DNA of 32,158 nucleotides, from contig JAENXD010000009.1 in assembly GCA_016649745.1 (NCBI GenBank), positions 1 through 32,158 on the forward strand. Direction: 5' to 3'. The position numbers and the translations under genes are program-made. The DNA is from Flavobacteriaceae bacterium. GTDB lineage: Bacteria > Bacteroidota > Bacteroidia > Flavobacteriales > Flavobacteriaceae. The notes under the pieces are model-generated. The model saw nothing but the letters and a program-made list of their open reading frames with translations, did no database searches and was not told where the DNA came from. Shown here piece after piece: positions 16,913 to 22,714 of this stretch; the stretch's first letter is position 1, and the number at the start of each line of letters is the position of its first letter.

Positions 16913-16950
16913 AAAAACGCTGAGATATTTATTTATTTCAGCGTTTTTTT
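16913..16950 (+). terminator. Strong intrinsic terminator after the secreted-protein gene
   Basis: AAAAACGCTGA (16913-16923) pairs perfectly over 11 bp with TCAGCGTTTTT (16938-16948) across a 14-base AT-rich loop, and the T-run continues to 16950. It isolates the following lysine aminomutase operon from upstream transcription. Confidence 0.88.
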
Positions 16951-17127: not shown

Positions 17128-18390
17128 ATGAATGAACTGTTACCTGAAGAATGCGAGCCTCCCCTAGTGCAGGATTTATCTTCTTCTGAACTTGTTTTAG
17201 GAACAAATTCAACAAAAAAACAATCCTATACTGAAGCTGAATTATTAAATTCAGACTTTGACGTTATCAGCGAATCGTCAAAATATTTTCGCAACACTTA
17301 TTTTCCGAATGTGCCCGATAAAAAATGGAGCAGTTGGAAATGGCAAATTCAAAACAGTTATACTAGTTTTAATGAACTTTCCAAAGTTTTAGACATCAGC
17401 AGTATTAGTGATGACGATGATTTTTTGACTAAAGCAAAAAAATTACCGCTCAGAATTACACCTTATTACGCAAGTCTTTTTGAAGGAAAACCAACAAATT
17501 ACGCATTAATAAAATCTGTAGTCCCTTCTAAACTTGAATTTATAGTTTCTGAAGGAGAAGAGGAAGATCCTTTACATGAAGAAAAAATGTGTCCAACTGA
17601 AAATTTGGTACATCGTTATCCAGATCGAGTTTTGATGCTCTCGACTGGATTTTGTTCGGTCTATTGCCGTTACTGCACACGTTCTCGAATGGTGTCAAAA
17701 GATCAAAAATCATACAGTTTTAAAGTATGGGAAAAGTCTCTTCAATATATAAGAAATACACCAACCATTAGAGATATTGTAATTTCTGGTGGAGACCCTT
17801 TAACATTACCAGACAAACAGTTAGATTATTTATTATCCGAATTGCGTGCCATACCACATGTGGAAATTATTCGTTTGGGAACCAAAGTTCCTATGGTTTT
17901 GCCACAACGTATAACACATAATCTGGTAAATATGATTAAAAAATACCATCCTGTATTTATGAGTGTTCATGTTACACATCCTGATGAATTTACGCCTGAA
18001 GTGAAAGAAGCATGTACAAGAATCGCAAATGCTGGTATTGTAATGGGAAGTCAAACCGTTTTATTACAAGGTGTAAATGATGAAGTTGGTATTATGAAGG
18101 ATTTAATGCACAAAGCGTTAATGTCTAGAATTAAACCATATTACATTTACCAATGCGACCCAATTCCAGGATCTTCCCATTTTAGAACTCCGGTAAGTAA
18201 AGGTCTTGAAATAATTCAGGGGTTACGTGGTTTTACAAGCGGTTATGCAATTCCTCATTTTGTGATTGATGCCCCAGGTGGAGGCGGTAAAATACCGTTG
18301 CTCCCTGAATATTATCAAGGTCGTGAAGGAGATTATGTGGTAATGAAAAATTTTGAAGGAAAAACCTATAAATATTACGATCCGGAATAA
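17128..18390 (+). CDS. kamA: Lysine 2,3-aminomutase (KamA-family radical SAM enzyme)
   Basis: This 420-residue enzyme should convert L-lysine to L-beta-lysine using S-adenosylmethionine, a [4Fe-4S] cluster and pyridoxal phosphate. The cluster motif is C176-x3-C180-x2-C183 (GFCSVYCRYC). D344 (YQCD) and D381 (VIDAPGGGGK) correspond to the two aspartates that hold the lysine side-chain amine in the clostridial enzyme, and K388 to the PLP lysine. The intervals from C176 to D344 (168), D344 to D381 (37) and D381 to K388 (7) equal those in Clostridium subterminale, as I remember its numbering (C125, D293, D330, K337). It has about 50 extra residues at the N-terminus. Its stop codon overlaps the next start (TAATG), so the products are translationally coupled. 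Confidence 0.93.
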   Translation: MNELLPEECEPPLVQDLSSSELVLGTNSTKKQSYTEAELLNSDFDVISESSKYFRNTYFPNVPDKKWSSWKWQIQNSYTSFNELSKVLDISSISDDDDFLTKAKKLPLRITPYYASLFEGKPTNYALIKSVVPSKLEFIVSEGEEEDPLHEEKMCPTENLVHRYPDRVLMLSTGFCSVYCRYCTRSRMVSKDQKSYSFKVWEKSLQYIRNTPTIRDIVISGGDPLTLPDKQLDYLLSELRAIPHVEIIRLGTKVPMVLPQRITHNLVNMIKKYHPVFMSVHVTHPDEFTPEVKEACTRIANAGIVMGSQTVLLQGVNDEVGIMKDLMHKALMSRIKPYYIYQCDPIPGSSHFRTPVSKGLEIIQGLRGFTSGYAIPHFVIDAPGGGGKIPLLPEYYQGREGDYVVMKNFEGKTYKYYDPE

Positions 18391-20150
18391 TGGCAATTTT
18401 TAAAATCAGAAAGATTACAGATCCGTATCTTCCATCGAATGATATGGCAATAAATCAGGTATTTAGCATTCTAAGAACTCATTTTCCTTCTGTGAAGGAG
18501 GATAAAATAAATGAGATCTTGGAGCAAATGAAAGATCCTTTGAAATATAAATTTTCTTCAAATTTATTTGTTGCCGAAGATGGAAAATCAAATGTGAAGG
18601 GATTTGCAATTTTGTTTTATATGCCTGATAAAAATTTCTTTTATTTAGATTATATAGCTGTGAAACCCGGCAAAATATCTTCTGGTGTTGGCGGCGCCAT
18701 TTATGAACGGCTAAGAGAAGAAGCACAAATGCATAAATCATTAGGTATTTTTATGGAATGCCTTCCAGACGATGAAAAATTGTGTAAGGACAAAACAGAA
18801 ATTAAACAAAACCAAGCAAGACTTGCTTTTTATGAACGTTATGGCGCGCGTCCAATTATTGGAACTAAATACGAAACAAATGTCAATCCGGAAGATGATT
18901 GTCCGCCGTACCTTGTTTTTGATGATCTAGGAAATGATATCAGACTTTCTTCAACAGATGCAAAAAAAATTGTAAGGGCTATTTTAGAACGAAAATATCC
19001 AACGTATTGTCCTGAAAATTATATAAAAATGATTATGTCTTCCATAAAAGACAATCCCATAAATTTAAGAGAATTTAAATACATCGTTAAGGAAAGACCT
19101 GTTGAAATCAGCGCTGCTGTTAAAGATGAAATAGCTTTAATAATTAACGATAAACACGATATTCATCATATAAAAGAAGTTGGTTATATTGAATCTCCTG
19201 TAAGAATAGGCAGCATTTATAAAGAAATTGTAAAATTAAACGCCTTTAAAACACGACCTTCAAGAGGCTATTCTGACAAATATATAACGCAGGTACATAA
19301 TCCAAAATATTTTAACTATTTTAAAACGGTTTGTGATAAACTTCCACCGGGAAAATCAATTTATCCGTATGTTTTTCCTGTTAGAAATGCTACGCGACCT
19401 CCAAGTGATTATACAGTTTTAGCAGGTTATTACTGCATTGATACATTTACTCCGATAAACAAAAATGCTTTTTTAGCAGCGCGATCGGGCGTGAATTGTG
19501 CTCTAACTGGAGCGGAATTATTATTGGAGGGTTATCATACTTCTTATGCCTTGGTCAGACCTCCTGGTCATCATGCGGAACGAGATGTATTTGGTGGATT
19601 TTGCTATTTCAATAATGGGGCAATTGCTGCAAATTTTCTTTCAAAATTTGGAAAAATAGCCATTTTGGATATTGACTATCATCATGGAAACGGGCAGCAA
19701 CAAATATTTTATGAGAGAAAGGACGTTTTTACGGTTTCTATACACGGAAATCCTTCTTTTGCATATCCATATTTTTCAGGATTTGCTGATGAAAAAGGAG
19801 AAGGTGAGGGAGAAGGTTTCAATTTAAATTATCCGCTAAAAGAAGCCTTAACAGGTGAAGAATATCTTTCTCACCTTAAAAAAGCCATTAAAGTCATTAA
19901 AGAATTTAAACCTGCATACCTGATTGTAAGTTTAGGATTTGACCCAGCCAAAGGTGACCCAACGGGAACTTGGTCATTAAAAGCATCAGACTTCAAAAAT
20001 AATGGAGCAGAATTTGGAAAACTTCCTTATCCAATATTATTTGTGCAAGAAGGAGGGTATAAAAATAGAACGCTGGGTATAAATGCACGTAATTTTTTTG
20101 ATGGATATTTGTCAACCAGAATATTAAAAAATAATAAAATTAAAGCATGA
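18390..20150 (+). CDS. GNAT acetyltransferase fused to histone-deacetylase-like amidohydrolase
   Basis: This 586-residue two-domain protein is cytosolic. Residues 1 to about 200 form a GNAT N-acetyltransferase with the acetyl-CoA strand-loop FYLDYIAVKPGKISSGVGG and a C-terminal AFYERYGARP motif. Residues about 270-586 form a class II HDAC/acetylpolyamine-amidohydrolase domain: RPPGHHAE with H394 and H395, DIDYHHGNG with zinc ligands D429 and H431, GDP with zinc ligand D523, and EGGY with catalytic Y557. Both active sites look intact, so one chain could both add and remove acetyl groups. It overlaps kamA by one base and the next gene by four. The likely substrates are beta-lysine-derived amines (inference). 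It is not a typical AblB, which is a stand-alone acetyltransferase. Confidence 0.9.
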   Translation: MAIFKIRKITDPYLPSNDMAINQVFSILRTHFPSVKEDKINEILEQMKDPLKYKFSSNLFVAEDGKSNVKGFAILFYMPDKNFFYLDYIAVKPGKISSGVGGAIYERLREEAQMHKSLGIFMECLPDDEKLCKDKTEIKQNQARLAFYERYGARPIIGTKYETNVNPEDDCPPYLVFDDLGNDIRLSSTDAKKIVRAILERKYPTYCPENYIKMIMSSIKDNPINLREFKYIVKERPVEISAAVKDEIALIINDKHDIHHIKEVGYIESPVRIGSIYKEIVKLNAFKTRPSRGYSDKYITQVHNPKYFNYFKTVCDKLPPGKSIYPYVFPVRNATRPPSDYTVLAGYYCIDTFTPINKNAFLAARSGVNCALTGAELLLEGYHTSYALVRPPGHHAERDVFGGFCYFNNGAIAANFLSKFGKIAILDIDYHHGNGQQQIFYERKDVFTVSIHGNPSFAYPYFSGFADEKGEGEGEGFNLNYPLKEALTGEEYLSHLKKAIKVIKEFKPAYLIVSLGFDPAKGDPTGTWSLKASDFKNNGAEFGKLPYPILFVQEGGYKNRTLGINARNFFDGYLSTRILKNNKIKA

Positions 20151-21124
20151 AAATTGGAATAACGTATGACCTAAGATCAGATTATTTGAGCCAAGGTTAT
20201 TCTATGGAAGAGACTGCTGAATTTGACAAAGAAAGTACCATTGAAGGAATAGAGCTAGCCATTCAAAAAGCCGGACATAAAACAGAGCGTATTGGACATG
20301 CACAAAGTTTAATGAAAGCACTTTTAGAAGGAAAAAAATGGGATTTAGTCTTTAATATTGCTGAAGGGTTGTATGGTGAAGGACGTGAATCTTTGGTTCC
20401 TGCCCTACTCGATTATTACAAAATACCTTATGTTTTTTCCGGTCCTGTAACTTTAGGCATCTCTTTAAATAAAGCTTTTGCGAAACAAATTGTAAAAGAA
20501 AACGGTGTAAACACTCCCGCTTTTAAGGTGATTTCTCAACTTTCTGATATGCAAAATATTAACCTTCAATACCCTCTTTTTGCAAAACCAATTTCAGAAG
20601 GAACAGGCAAAGGAATTGATGCTAAATCTGTTATAAATTCAGTAGAAGAATTACAAAAGGTTTGCACAAATTTACTTTCAAAATTCAATCAGCCTGTTTT
20701 GGTGGAAGAATATTTGCCTGGCAGAGAATTTACCGTGGGGATTTTGGGAAGTGGTGAAGATGCATTTGTGCCAGGTGCTATGGAAATTGTATATAAAGAA
20801 GACACTCATAATTTTTATTCCTATGAAAATAAAGAAAATTTTGAAAGACATATTGAGTATGTTGCTGTCACTGGAGATTTATTGGAACAATGTAAATTTG
20901 TAGCTTTAAAATCTTGGAAATCATTAAATTGTTTGGACGGTGGCAGGGTTGATGTTAAAATTGACCGCTTTGGGAAGGTCAGTTTTATTGAAGTGAATCC
21001 ATTAGCTGGATTGAATCCTATCATTTCTGATTTACCAATTCTTTGCGGTTTAAATAATTTCTCCTATCAGGAAATAATTAATGAGATTTTAAAATCGGCT
21101 ATAAAAAGAAATTTCAACACATGA
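20147..21124 (+). CDS. ATP-grasp ligase, D-Ala-D-Ala-ligase-like (first of two)
   Basis: This 325-residue protein has the ATP-grasp layout. An N-terminal domain carries DLVFNIAEGLYGEGRESLVPALLD, the D-Ala-D-Ala-ligase-type HxEG-like segment with IPYVFSGP. A central domain has nucleotide-binding FAKPISEGTGKGI and VEEYLPGREFTVG. The C-terminal catalytic core is GGRVDVKID...FIEVNPLAGLNP with Asp, Glu and Asn as Mg ligands. Such enzymes join a carboxylate, activated as acyl phosphate, to an amine. The genuine peptidoglycan ligase is normally encoded in the cell-wall gene cluster, and here the gene overlaps an amino-acid-modifying gene by four bases (ATGA). A biosynthetic ligase acting on beta-lysine or a derivative is the most economical reading, but unproven. 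Confidence 0.88.
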   Translation: MKIGITYDLRSDYLSQGYSMEETAEFDKESTIEGIELAIQKAGHKTERIGHAQSLMKALLEGKKWDLVFNIAEGLYGEGRESLVPALLDYYKIPYVFSGPVTLGISLNKAFAKQIVKENGVNTPAFKVISQLSDMQNINLQYPLFAKPISEGTGKGIDAKSVINSVEELQKVCTNLLSKFNQPVLVEEYLPGREFTVGILGSGEDAFVPGAMEIVYKEDTHNFYSYENKENFERHIEYVAVTGDLLEQCKFVALKSWKSLNCLDGGRVDVKIDRFGKVSFIEVNPLAGLNPIISDLPILCGLNNFSYQEIINEILKSAIKRNFNT

Positions 21125-22086
21125 TAAAAAAAATTGTAATACTTCACAATCAAGTACTTACCAATAATCCTGACGAGATGGATGTTATCAATCAAAGAGA
21201 TTTGGTAAAAAAAGCCTGTGAAAATTTGAATTATCAAGTTAGCTGCTTAACCGTTGGCAATGACGTAATTGCAGATATAGAAAGGGTTAAAACAGAAAAA
21301 CCCGATGTTGTTTTTAATCTTGTTGAAGCAACTTGGGGAATGGGAGAGCTCATTTACGTAGTACCAGCTATTTTAAATGCCTTTAAAATACCTTATACAG
21401 GTGTTCCTTTAGACGCTTTATTTGTAACAACCAATAAAGTTTTGGCAAAAAAATTGATGCGTTTTAACAAGCTTCCAACAGCTGATTTTTTCTCCATAAA
21501 TGAACTTAATCAATTAAATCCTGTAAAAACATATATTGCAAAACCTATTTGGGAAGAAGCTTCTGTTGGTATTTCAACCGATTTTATTTTTAATACTTCT
21601 GAAATTGATACACTTCAAAAAATTAAACGATTCCCTAATTCTCATTATTTTGTGGAAGAATTTATTGATGGAAGAGAGTTCAATGTAAGTATGTTAACAG
21701 CTAAAAACGGTGTTGAGGTTTTGCCACCAGCCGAAATTATATTTTCTGAATATTTTGATGATAAACCAAAAATTGTAGGGTATGAAGCAAAATGGAACGA
21801 GGATAGCGAAGAATATAAACAAACAAACAGGGTTTTTGGGACTTTAGAAACCAATCGAAAACTTGAAGAAAACTTAATAGCTATTTGTAAAAAATCTTGG
21901 AAAGCATTTAACTTAAAGGGCTATGCAAGAATTGATTTCAGAGTAGATACAAATGATAATGTATTCATATTGGAAATTAATGGAAATCCGTGTATTGCGC
22001 CAGATAGCGGTTTTGTAGCTGCCGCCAATTTTGCAGGTTATAGTGTTGACATAATGATTCAAAGAATTTTAGAAGAATTAAACTAA
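21121..22086 (+). CDS. ATP-grasp ligase, D-Ala-D-Ala-ligase-like (second of two)
   Basis: This 321-residue ATP-grasp protein overlaps the preceding ligase by four bases. Homologous landmarks are DVVFNLVEATWGMGE, IPYTGVPLDA, IAKPIWEEASVGI, VEEFIDGREFNV and the catalytic core YARIDFRVD...FILEINGNPCIAP. Differences from its partner, such as EATWGMGE against EGLYGEGR in the substrate loop and NPCIAPDSG against NPLAGLNP at the active-site end, show that it is not a recent duplicate and probably binds a different donor or acceptor. The two ligases could act in sequence or as a heteromer. It is the last gene of the overlapping set, and a repeat-filled gap follows. Confidence 0.88.
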   Translation: MIKKIVILHNQVLTNNPDEMDVINQRDLVKKACENLNYQVSCLTVGNDVIADIERVKTEKPDVVFNLVEATWGMGELIYVVPAILNAFKIPYTGVPLDALFVTTNKVLAKKLMRFNKLPTADFFSINELNQLNPVKTYIAKPIWEEASVGISTDFIFNTSEIDTLQKIKRFPNSHYFVEEFIDGREFNVSMLTAKNGVEVLPPAEIIFSEYFDDKPKIVGYEAKWNEDSEEYKQTNRVFGTLETNRKLEENLIAICKKSWKAFNLKGYARIDFRVDTNDNVFILEINGNPCIAPDSGFVAAANFAGYSVDIMIQRILEELN

Positions 22087-22144
22087 AAATATGAAACGAG
22101 CATGCTAAAAAGTTTATCACCCAAGGTAATGACAAATAGCAAAC

Positions 22145-22161
22145 CTACCTGCGGCAGGTAG
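22145..22161. repeat. Short GC-rich palindromic repeat (CTACCTG-CGG-CAGGTAG)
   Basis: A perfect 7-bp stem with a 3-base loop in otherwise AT-rich DNA. It is similar in sequence to the palindrome at 28592-28607. Confidence 0.7.
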
Positions 22162-22220
22162 CATGACTGTGCTGAGCGCGGTTACTGAGCGAAGTTGAAG
22201 TAGAGTCGAAGTATGACCGT
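22162..22220 (+). repeat. Dispersed intergenic repeat with CTGAGCGnAG...GAAG core
   Basis: GCTGAGCGCGG and CTGAGCGAAGTTGAAG (22185-22200) are followed by AGTCGAAG and flanked by ATGAC-type ends. The 16-base core matches the AERSRS repeat core at 13 of 16 positions, so the two repeat types are probably related. Confidence 0.6.
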
Positions 22221-22237
22221 TAAAAAAATATAGACAC

Positions 22238-22714
22238 ATGAAATTTAGAAAGCAATTAAAAGAAAGTGATATTCTTGCGGTAAAAGAAATATTGAATTCA
22301 ACAGGTTTTTTTTATGATTTTGAGGTTGAAATAGCTGCTGAACTTGCGCAGGAAAACTTTGCCAAAGGCGAAGAATTAAGCGGTTATATTTTTATTATTG
22401 TTGAAAAAGACCGCAAACCGGTTGCTTTCGCCTGTTATGGAAAAACGCCTTGTACCGCTGACAGTTTTGATTTGTATTGGATAGCAGTTCATCAAAATCA
22501 GAAAGGTAGCGGTATTGGAAAAATATTGATGAAAATGATAGAAGAAGATGTTAAAAAATTAGGAGGCAAAAACATTTGGATAGAAACCGCTGGGAGAATA
22601 TTATATAACCCAACTCGTAAATTTTACGAAAACTATGGATGTGAACTTATTGCTGAATTACCAGAATTTTATGGAAAAGATGATAGTAAAATAATTTATT
22701 TATTAAAAGTTTAA
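22238..22714 (+). CDS. Stand-alone GNAT-family N-acetyltransferase
   Basis: This 158-residue acetyltransferase shows the GNAT pattern: N-terminal beta-alpha substrate region, FDLYWIAVHQNQKGSGIGKIL with the acetyl-CoA pyrophosphate loop (QKGSGIG) near residue 91, and a C-terminal RKFYENYGCELIAEL strand. The acceptor amine is unknown. It lies on the same strand 151 bases after the second ATP-grasp gene. The gap is filled with dispersed repeats, so membership in the same operon is uncertain. A role in the beta-lysine pathway is plausible, since Nepsilon-acetyl-beta-lysine is a known osmolyte made by an aminomutase and an acetyltransferase. A hairpin follows its stop codon. Confidence 0.88.
   Translation: MKFRKQLKESDILAVKEILNSTGFFYDFEVEIAAELAQENFAKGEELSGYIFIIVEKDRKPVAFACYGKTPCTADSFDLYWIAVHQNQKGSGIGKILMKMIEEDVKKLGGKNIWIETAGRILYNPTRKFYENYGCELIAELPEFYGKDDSKIIYLLKV

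Follow-up and report, generated by a model that had tools for sequence, protein, structure and literature searches.

A conserved kamA, ATP-grasp and acetyltransferase gene module with an optional GNAT-deacetylase fusion that may build a beta-lysine-derived metabolite

Introduction

What would be made by a gene cluster that places a lysine 2,3-aminomutase-like enzyme beside two ATP-grasp ligases, an acetyltransferase and an enzyme that may both add and remove acetyl groups? The question is raised by a 32,158-nucleotide contig of a Flavobacteriaceae bacterium (JAENXD010000009.1, assembly GCA_016649745.1; the whole contig is called the window below), on which kamA, a gene for a GNAT-deacetylase fusion and two genes for ligases related to D-alanine-D-alanine ligase (Ddl), here named gA and gB, are followed by a second GNAT gene, GN2. 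A sequence-only reading of the window had taken the first four of these genes as a unit and had proposed that they probably build something larger than N-epsilon-acetyl-beta-lysine, such as a beta-lysine dipeptide or amide. We find that the locus is a genuine and strongly co-conserved metabolic module consisting of four core genes (kamA, gA, gB and GN2) and an accessory acetylation enzyme, the fusion. This gene set was not described in the titles and abstract openings of the open-licence PMC literature that was searched.

Results

Conservation of the core and of the fusion

The conserved entity is the core, to which the GNAT-deacetylase fusion is an optional add-on. A search seeded with gB recovered loci in which gA, gB, GN2 and kamA are consecutive and the fusion is absent; both of the two fusion-less loci examined in full adjoin recG. 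Among 247 genomes of the Bacteroidota phylum, a gB-like match was present in 47 (a count that can include other Ddl-like genes), GN2 in 43 and a KamA of the cluster type in 39, and all 39 genomes with the strong KamA match also carried GN2 and a gB-like gene. The GN2 loci were tight in 35 of 43 cases, two ATP-grasp genes being no more than 3 kb away and kamA no more than 6.5 kb away, at a KamA threshold of 1e-130 that was chosen by us for a query from locus L133; the KamA of the window falls outside this threshold and was added to the count by hand. In four genomes (G274, G317, G327 and G425) the three genes were present but apart.

In two further genome sets, each from a single phylum, GN2 was present in 47 of 148 genomes (the phylum of a Desulfobulbaceae metagenome-assembled genome, or MAG; G581) and in 12 of 99 (that of a Planctomycetota MAG; G586). 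At the loci fetched, gA or gB lay beside it in 27 of 30 and 9 of 12 cases, respectively, 17 of the 47 GN2 loci of the first phylum being outside the fetched set. The fusion occurred in 11 of the same 148 genomes, 10 of which also had GN2 (hypergeometric P 4e-5, with kinship ignored), indicating that the fusion is accessory to the core and not the reverse. Thus, the gene set of the sequence-only reading is co-conserved, but the fusion is not its constitutive member, as the core without it is the commoner form. On plasmids, distant relatives of gB or GN2 lay among other gene sets.

The co-conservation also bears on the possibility that kamA serves lysine fermentation and merely has unrelated neighbors. 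Lysine 2,3-aminomutase begins lysine fermentation in some bacteria, which speaks for such a role. However, kamA is conserved together with the ligases and GN2, and no fermentation-linked shared family appeared among the best 25 families in each of the two neighbor sets described below (fermentation genes were not searched genome-wide). We consider a fermentation locus exceedingly improbable.

Loci with the fusion were collected by a profile-guided contig scan in which the peptides NDKHDIH and N[DG][ME][AE]I[NK]QV served as seeds. It returned 64 loci, a set that misses loci with neither seed peptide and in which the conservation of NDKHDIH is given by construction. Their record titles name Bacteroidota, Desulfobacterota-type, Planctomycetota, Acidobacteria, Calditrichota, Proteobacteria and other sources; many are MAG contigs, and L100 and G570 (L046) are one contig. 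Carriers recorded under a strain name include Ancylomarina sp. 16SWW S1-10-2 (L055) and Desulfatitalea alkaliphila M08but (L093). A search for the neighborhood in other genomes had been suggested as a check of the sequence-only reading, and the genes proved to lie together not only in the 35 of 43 GN2 loci but also in 42 of the 64 fusion loci. By tblastn, these 42 carry kamA, gA and gB as well as GN2 and the two halves of the fusion, arranged in three orders that are found in 24, 10 and 8 loci. Five of these full loci have a broken or cut-off part, namely kamA in L047 and L095, the deacetylase in L058 and L106, and gB in L097. The remainder comprise 10 loci with a partial set and 12 with the fusion alone. 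Six partial loci had no kamA match, and five of the six begin inside gA or gB or less than 700 bases before them, the exception being L099. Where the fusion stands alone, at least two core genes are clearly present elsewhere in nine of the 12 genomes, a weaker pair of ATP-grasp genes in tandem is seen in one (G587), and two (G590 and G591) gave weak matches only.

Within the family of the organism (199 genomes), a full-length match to the fusion was found in the window's genome only, and the 84 other matching genomes matched part of the deacetylase half at a far lower score. Among 395 phylum genomes, one further full-length match was seen, 57% identical, in genome G570, where kamA, both ligases, the fusion and GN2 are consecutive. 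The closest fusion locus found belongs to an uncultured Lutibacter MAG, with 92% identity in the fusion. In the tree of the fusion, many rows of which are MAGs, phyla are mixed at several starred branches, a pattern compatible with horizontal transfer that does not prove it. A plasmid origin of the fusion was considered and rejected: tblastn against the plasmid collection matched 129 records, none of which covered 80% of the query, and the 20 listed of these 129 covered 48-54% of it, in the deacetylase half.

Enzymes of the core

KamA, composed of Radical_SAM and LAM_C domains, scored 336 bits against TIGR00238, over the cut-off, and aligned over 363 residues with the lysine 2,3-aminomutase 2a5h (E 5e-123). 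The residues of 2a5h that we take to be the three iron-sulfur cysteines, the carboxylate-binding arginine, the two lysine-site aspartates and the lysine that binds pyridoxal phosphate (PLP) have identical counterparts in 23 of 23 aligned rows, the window included. Against the AblA model TIGR03820 the score was 447 bits, below the cut-off of 525.4, and the protein ends one residue past the alignment, at position 368 of 416 in 2a5h, without the C-terminal cysteine tail that is presumably the Zn site of AblA. The sub-cut-off score and the missing tail place KamA, as judged by this model, close to AblA and outside it.

A relative of KamA, EpmB, is used for modification of elongation factor P (EF-P), pointing to a possible attachment of beta-lysine to a macromolecule such as a translation factor or the cell wall. 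The window's KamA reached 245 bits against the EpmB model, under the cut-off, and EF-P modification by EpmB was rejected on this ground. Ligases of the Ddl type, to which both gA and gB belong, act on small molecules, and to our knowledge the EF-P system includes neither two ligases nor GNATs; both points count against a macromolecular target, which we regard as very improbable.

The two ligases share the Dala_Dala_lig_C domain, and by sequence and their ATP-grasp core they are members of the Ddl superfamily. However, gA and gB scored 128 and 101 bits against TIGR01205 (Ddl; cut-off 246) and lay under every curated Ddl cut-off among 25 of the 40 and 25 of the 30 models that matched them, and the window's genome has a separate Ddl that passes TIGR01205 at 262.5 bits. 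At the positions that correspond by alignment to Ser150 and Tyr216 of E. coli DdlB, which we take to form the D-Ala site, gA has Thr (20 of 22) and Glu (19 of 22), and gB has Ala (21 of 22) and Trp (22 of 22). Given the scores and the separate Ddl, gA and gB appear unlikely to be D-Ala ligases, the alternative raised against the proposal at the outset.

GN2 is of the same family as its best PDB relative, 2r7h (E 3e-56), a "putative D-alanine N-acetyltransferase" in the wording of the depositors, but differs in its setting beside kamA and ligases that score under the Ddl cut-offs. In 11 of the 64 fusion loci GN2 is in a single open frame with the deacetylase, forming a GNAT-deacetylase-GNAT protein some 750 residues long, which is a Rosetta-stone link between the two.

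KamA together with a GNAT is the known recipe for N-epsilon-acetyl-beta-lysine (excerpts of PMC3543383 and PMC12776343), and the locus could be a plain route to this osmolyte in which GN2 replaces AblB and the ligases serve an unrelated step. In keeping with this, AblB (TIGR03827) had no match at E 1e-3 in the window's genome (78% complete), and the 43 GN2 genomes included none of the 15 that gave the best AblB matches (11 of the 15 over the cut-off), a non-overlap that is weak because about 2.6 would be expected and it follows lineage. The cluster resembles AblA plus AblB in pairing an aminomutase with a GNAT that would act on lysine, but its KamA lies under the AblA cut-off, AblB is unmatched, and two ATP-grasps and a deacetylase fusion are extra. 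As gA and gB accompany kamA and GN2 in most loci, the plain route seems quite unlikely.

The GNAT-deacetylase fusion

The fusion consists of a GNAT domain (residues ~1-235; Pfam Acetyltransf_7, 27.4 bits with a cut-off of 27.0) and an acetylpolyamine-amidohydrolase-like domain (residues ~267-569; Hist_deacetyl, 9.9e-72), and its best PDB match is the acetylpolyamine amidohydrolase 9gkz. In the alignment of the deacetylase half (64 rows, with the broken frame of L058 skipped), the HH pair, the Zn ligands and the EGGY tyrosine are identical in all 62-63 covering rows, and the RPPGHH motif is kept in every covering row. Together with the invariant residues of KamA, this confirmed the earlier statement that the catalytic motifs are intact. 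At the Glu106 position, 62 of 64 rows have Ser, Pro, Ala or Thr, and all 62 covered rows have PTG where PIS or PEG would be expected for polyamine specificity. Glu106 is not universal among acetylpolyamine amidohydrolases, as PsApaH has His106 (excerpt of PMC11532494). The changed Glu106 and PIS positions suggest that the likely substrate is a different, though related, acetylated amine of small size.

Compared with cluster 4 of the acetylpolyamine amidohydrolases as presented in excerpts of Graf et al. 2024 (PMC11532494), the fusion aligned in RPPGHH, EGGY, the Zn ligands and the FPVR part of the L2-loop, but differed at Glu106 and PIS, in a shorter aligned L1 region and in the fused GNAT. 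The four main-text passages of that paper on GNAT and fusion mention no GNAT-deacylase fusion, and ATP-grasp and aminomutase have zero occurrences in its main text.

The GNAT half gave one PDB profile match, a weak one, to the putative streptothricin acetyltransferase 3pp9 (E 6e-4). Streptothricin acetyltransferases acetylate a beta-lysine moiety, and beta-lysine occurs in antibiotics. The match and the patchy distribution of the fusion would fit a secreted secondary metabolite, such as an antibiotic or metallophore, carrying a beta-lysine side group as in streptothricin. However, the core is common and adjoins recG in the two loci examined, and no shared exporter or regulator stands out among the neighbor families listed, where transporters and sensor kinases occur singly, making a secreted product improbable.

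If the acetyltransferase and deacetylase parts of a single chain worked on the same substrate, the cycle would be futile, which favors different substrates before and after ligation. Under a protect-ligate-deprotect scheme, a GNAT would acetylate the side-chain amine of beta-lysine, the ligases would couple the protected molecule unambiguously, and the fused deacetylase would strip the acetyl group, leaving a product without it. The conserved active-site residues and the frame shared by GN2 and the fusion chain in 11 of 64 loci agree with such a scheme. It is opposed by the distribution of the core, which is mostly without the fusion (11 genomes with the fusion and 47 with GN2 among the 148), indicating that deprotection is not generally needed in the GN2 genomes sampled. 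We therefore regard the scheme as unlikely.

Gene layout and neighboring genes

The window belongs to a 3.1-Mb genome. The four open reading frames (ORFs) of the sequence-only reading, all on the plus strand, and their overlaps of 1, 4 and 4 bases were confirmed (Table 1), but the boundary drawn around them was not, as GN2 is a fifth member and the cluster is a five-gene unit. The strong terminator proposed ahead of the cluster was recovered by folding as a hairpin (-18.3 kcal/mol, z -7.5; none of 200 shuffles equally good) accompanied by a T-run between the upstream gene and kamA, and it was absent from the output of a simple terminator scan. The gap between gB and GN2, about 150 bp in the window and 5 bp in the nearest relative, L047, carries the palindrome CTACCTGCGGCAGGTAG and looks like a small inserted repeat element, no second copy of whose motifs was found within the window.

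Table 1 Features of the cluster and its flanks in the window
Feature	Coordinates	Strand	Description
Terminator-like hairpin	16913..16948	+	3' of upstream gene, 5' of cluster; fold and sequence
kamA	17128..18390	+	420 aa; lysine 2,3-aminomutase-like radical SAM/PLP enzyme
GNAT-deacetylase fusion (accessory gene)	18390..20150	+	586 aa; Pfam, PDB best match, 64 related loci
gA, Ddl-like ATP-grasp ligase A	20147..21124	+	325 aa; Dala_Dala_lig_C 4.9e-26; profile A6
gB, Ddl-like ATP-grasp ligase B	21121..22086	+	321 aa; Dala_Dala_lig_C 1.4e-20; profile A2
Spacer with palindrome, gB-GN2	22087..22237		counterpart in nearest relative L047 is 5 bp
GN2, second GNAT acetyltransferase	22238..22714	+	conserved core member; best PDB relative 2r7h

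Neighboring genes were selected from 63 loci (L100 excluded), taking at most two per side within 4 kb and the inner ones, which yielded 209 proteins of at least 150 aa. Five of these were dropped (L061 and L062, whose flanks are like those of L059), leaving 204 proteins scanned in sets of 99 and 105, some of which, in GC-rich loci, are possibly not genes. The commonest families were amino-acid permeases and mechanosensitive channels (4 of 99 each) and PAS domains (4 of 105), and no family among the best 25 Pfam families in each set exceeded these counts. A sodium/calcium exchanger gene follows GN2 in L053.

A family of small proteins with a cysteine cluster adjoins the cluster in ten loci (L076:6199-6723, L085, L086, L087, L089, L094, L097, L104, L105 and L110), mostly right before gA; the L086 member matches PF03692, and the family is possibly a further part of the pathway. 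Related genes lie immediately 3' of GN2 at L069:11332-12051 and L076:11371-12180, the L076 copy matching a C39-type peptidase, and related ORFs near the cluster are found at L047:2-313, L058:3-896 and L076:16016-17488, the last with a nitrilase-type domain. A different small cluster is present on the Thioflavicoccus mobilis plasmid pTHIMO01 (L135), where SbnA, an ornithine cyclodeaminase-type gene, a diaminobutyrate transaminase gene and a Ddl-like ATP-grasp gene adjoin a KamA-family gene on the opposite strand.

Discussion

Our analysis of the enzyme families and their conserved residues, from which we infer every reaction as well as the product and its role, suggests the following route. KamA, with the active-site residues conserved, would convert L-lysine to beta-lysine; gA and gB would each form one ATP-driven amide bond, as expected for their family, yielding a small beta-lysine-containing peptide or amide; and GN2, a step of the core route, would acetylate one amine of the precursor or the product. 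The fusion would act where present, its GNAT end adding an acetyl group to an amine and its acetylpolyamine-amidohydrolase-like end removing one, and this turnover could set the charge of the molecule or take off a protecting group. Beta-lysine amide chemistry appears probable on the sequence evidence. The larger beta-lysine product of the sequence-only reading is plausible, and the enzyme families point to a beta-lysine dipeptide or amide. The likeliest use of such a compound would be as a cytoplasmic compatible solute or a similar stress metabolite, acting in the manner of N-epsilon-acetyl-beta-lysine or N-acetylglutaminylglutamine amide, although we hold an osmolyte role itself to be doubtful. 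Our best reading of the whole, to which we would give somewhat short of an even chance, is an N-acetylated beta-lysine peptide or amide that possibly serves as a compatible solute, with its acetylation adjusted by the fusion.

A known osmolyte, N-acetylglutaminylglutamine amide (NAGGN), combines acetylation with a non-ribosomal peptide bond through AsnO and Ngg (excerpt of PMC8070244). The route proposed here would share both features, but its presumed building block differs, and no AsnO-like or Ngg domains were found in the five cluster genes, to which that test was applied.

Several observations weigh against the N-acetylated beta-lysine peptide or amide. In the nearest relative, the MAG locus L047, kamA is cut to a 55-residue N-terminal match (L047:504-782) and the other genes are kept, with the downstream flank still syntenic with the window; the remnant may reflect real decay or an assembly error. 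In the stretches searched, L099 has no kamA and L110 no gA; 3 of the 43 GN2 genomes have no KamA match at 1e-130, and G721 has the fusion and no GN2 match. The KamA of the window and five relatives, some of them entered as matched stretches and not as whole proteins, scored 447-489 bits on TIGR03820, all six under the AblA equivalog cut-off. With regard to role, the mechanosensitive-channel genes and the streptothricin-acetyltransferase match speak in favor of the reading, but as weak pointers. MscS-type channel genes were found within 3 kb in L064, L065, L070 and L091 (312 kb of flank) and in no case beyond (350 kb), lying 48 bases (L070) and 97 bases (L091) from the nearest matched gene, a small signal from a model built from the same four genes that it found; two of the four loci, L065 and L091, hold the fusion without an adjacent core. 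Finally, Rfam returned zero matches within the window, and a riboswitch was rejected on this result, whereas some ablA genes have an associated Na+ riboswitch (excerpt of PMC9337991).

A broader proposal, which we put forward as possible and rather doubtful, is that the core makes a new, cross-phylum class of non-ribosomal beta-lysyl peptide whose charge is switched through acetyl groups by the bifunctional fusion. If this were true, several phyla would make a metabolite family absent from the literature searched, by way of a four-enzyme route transferable to a laboratory host, and the fusion of a GNAT with a histone deacetylase-type domain, almost exclusive to this pathway, would represent a compact switch that controls the acetylation of a small molecule. 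The module would then also provide candidate functions for proteins that at present bear no more than the names "D-alanine-D-alanine ligase", "KamA family", "D-alanine N-acetyltransferase" and "histone deacetylase family".

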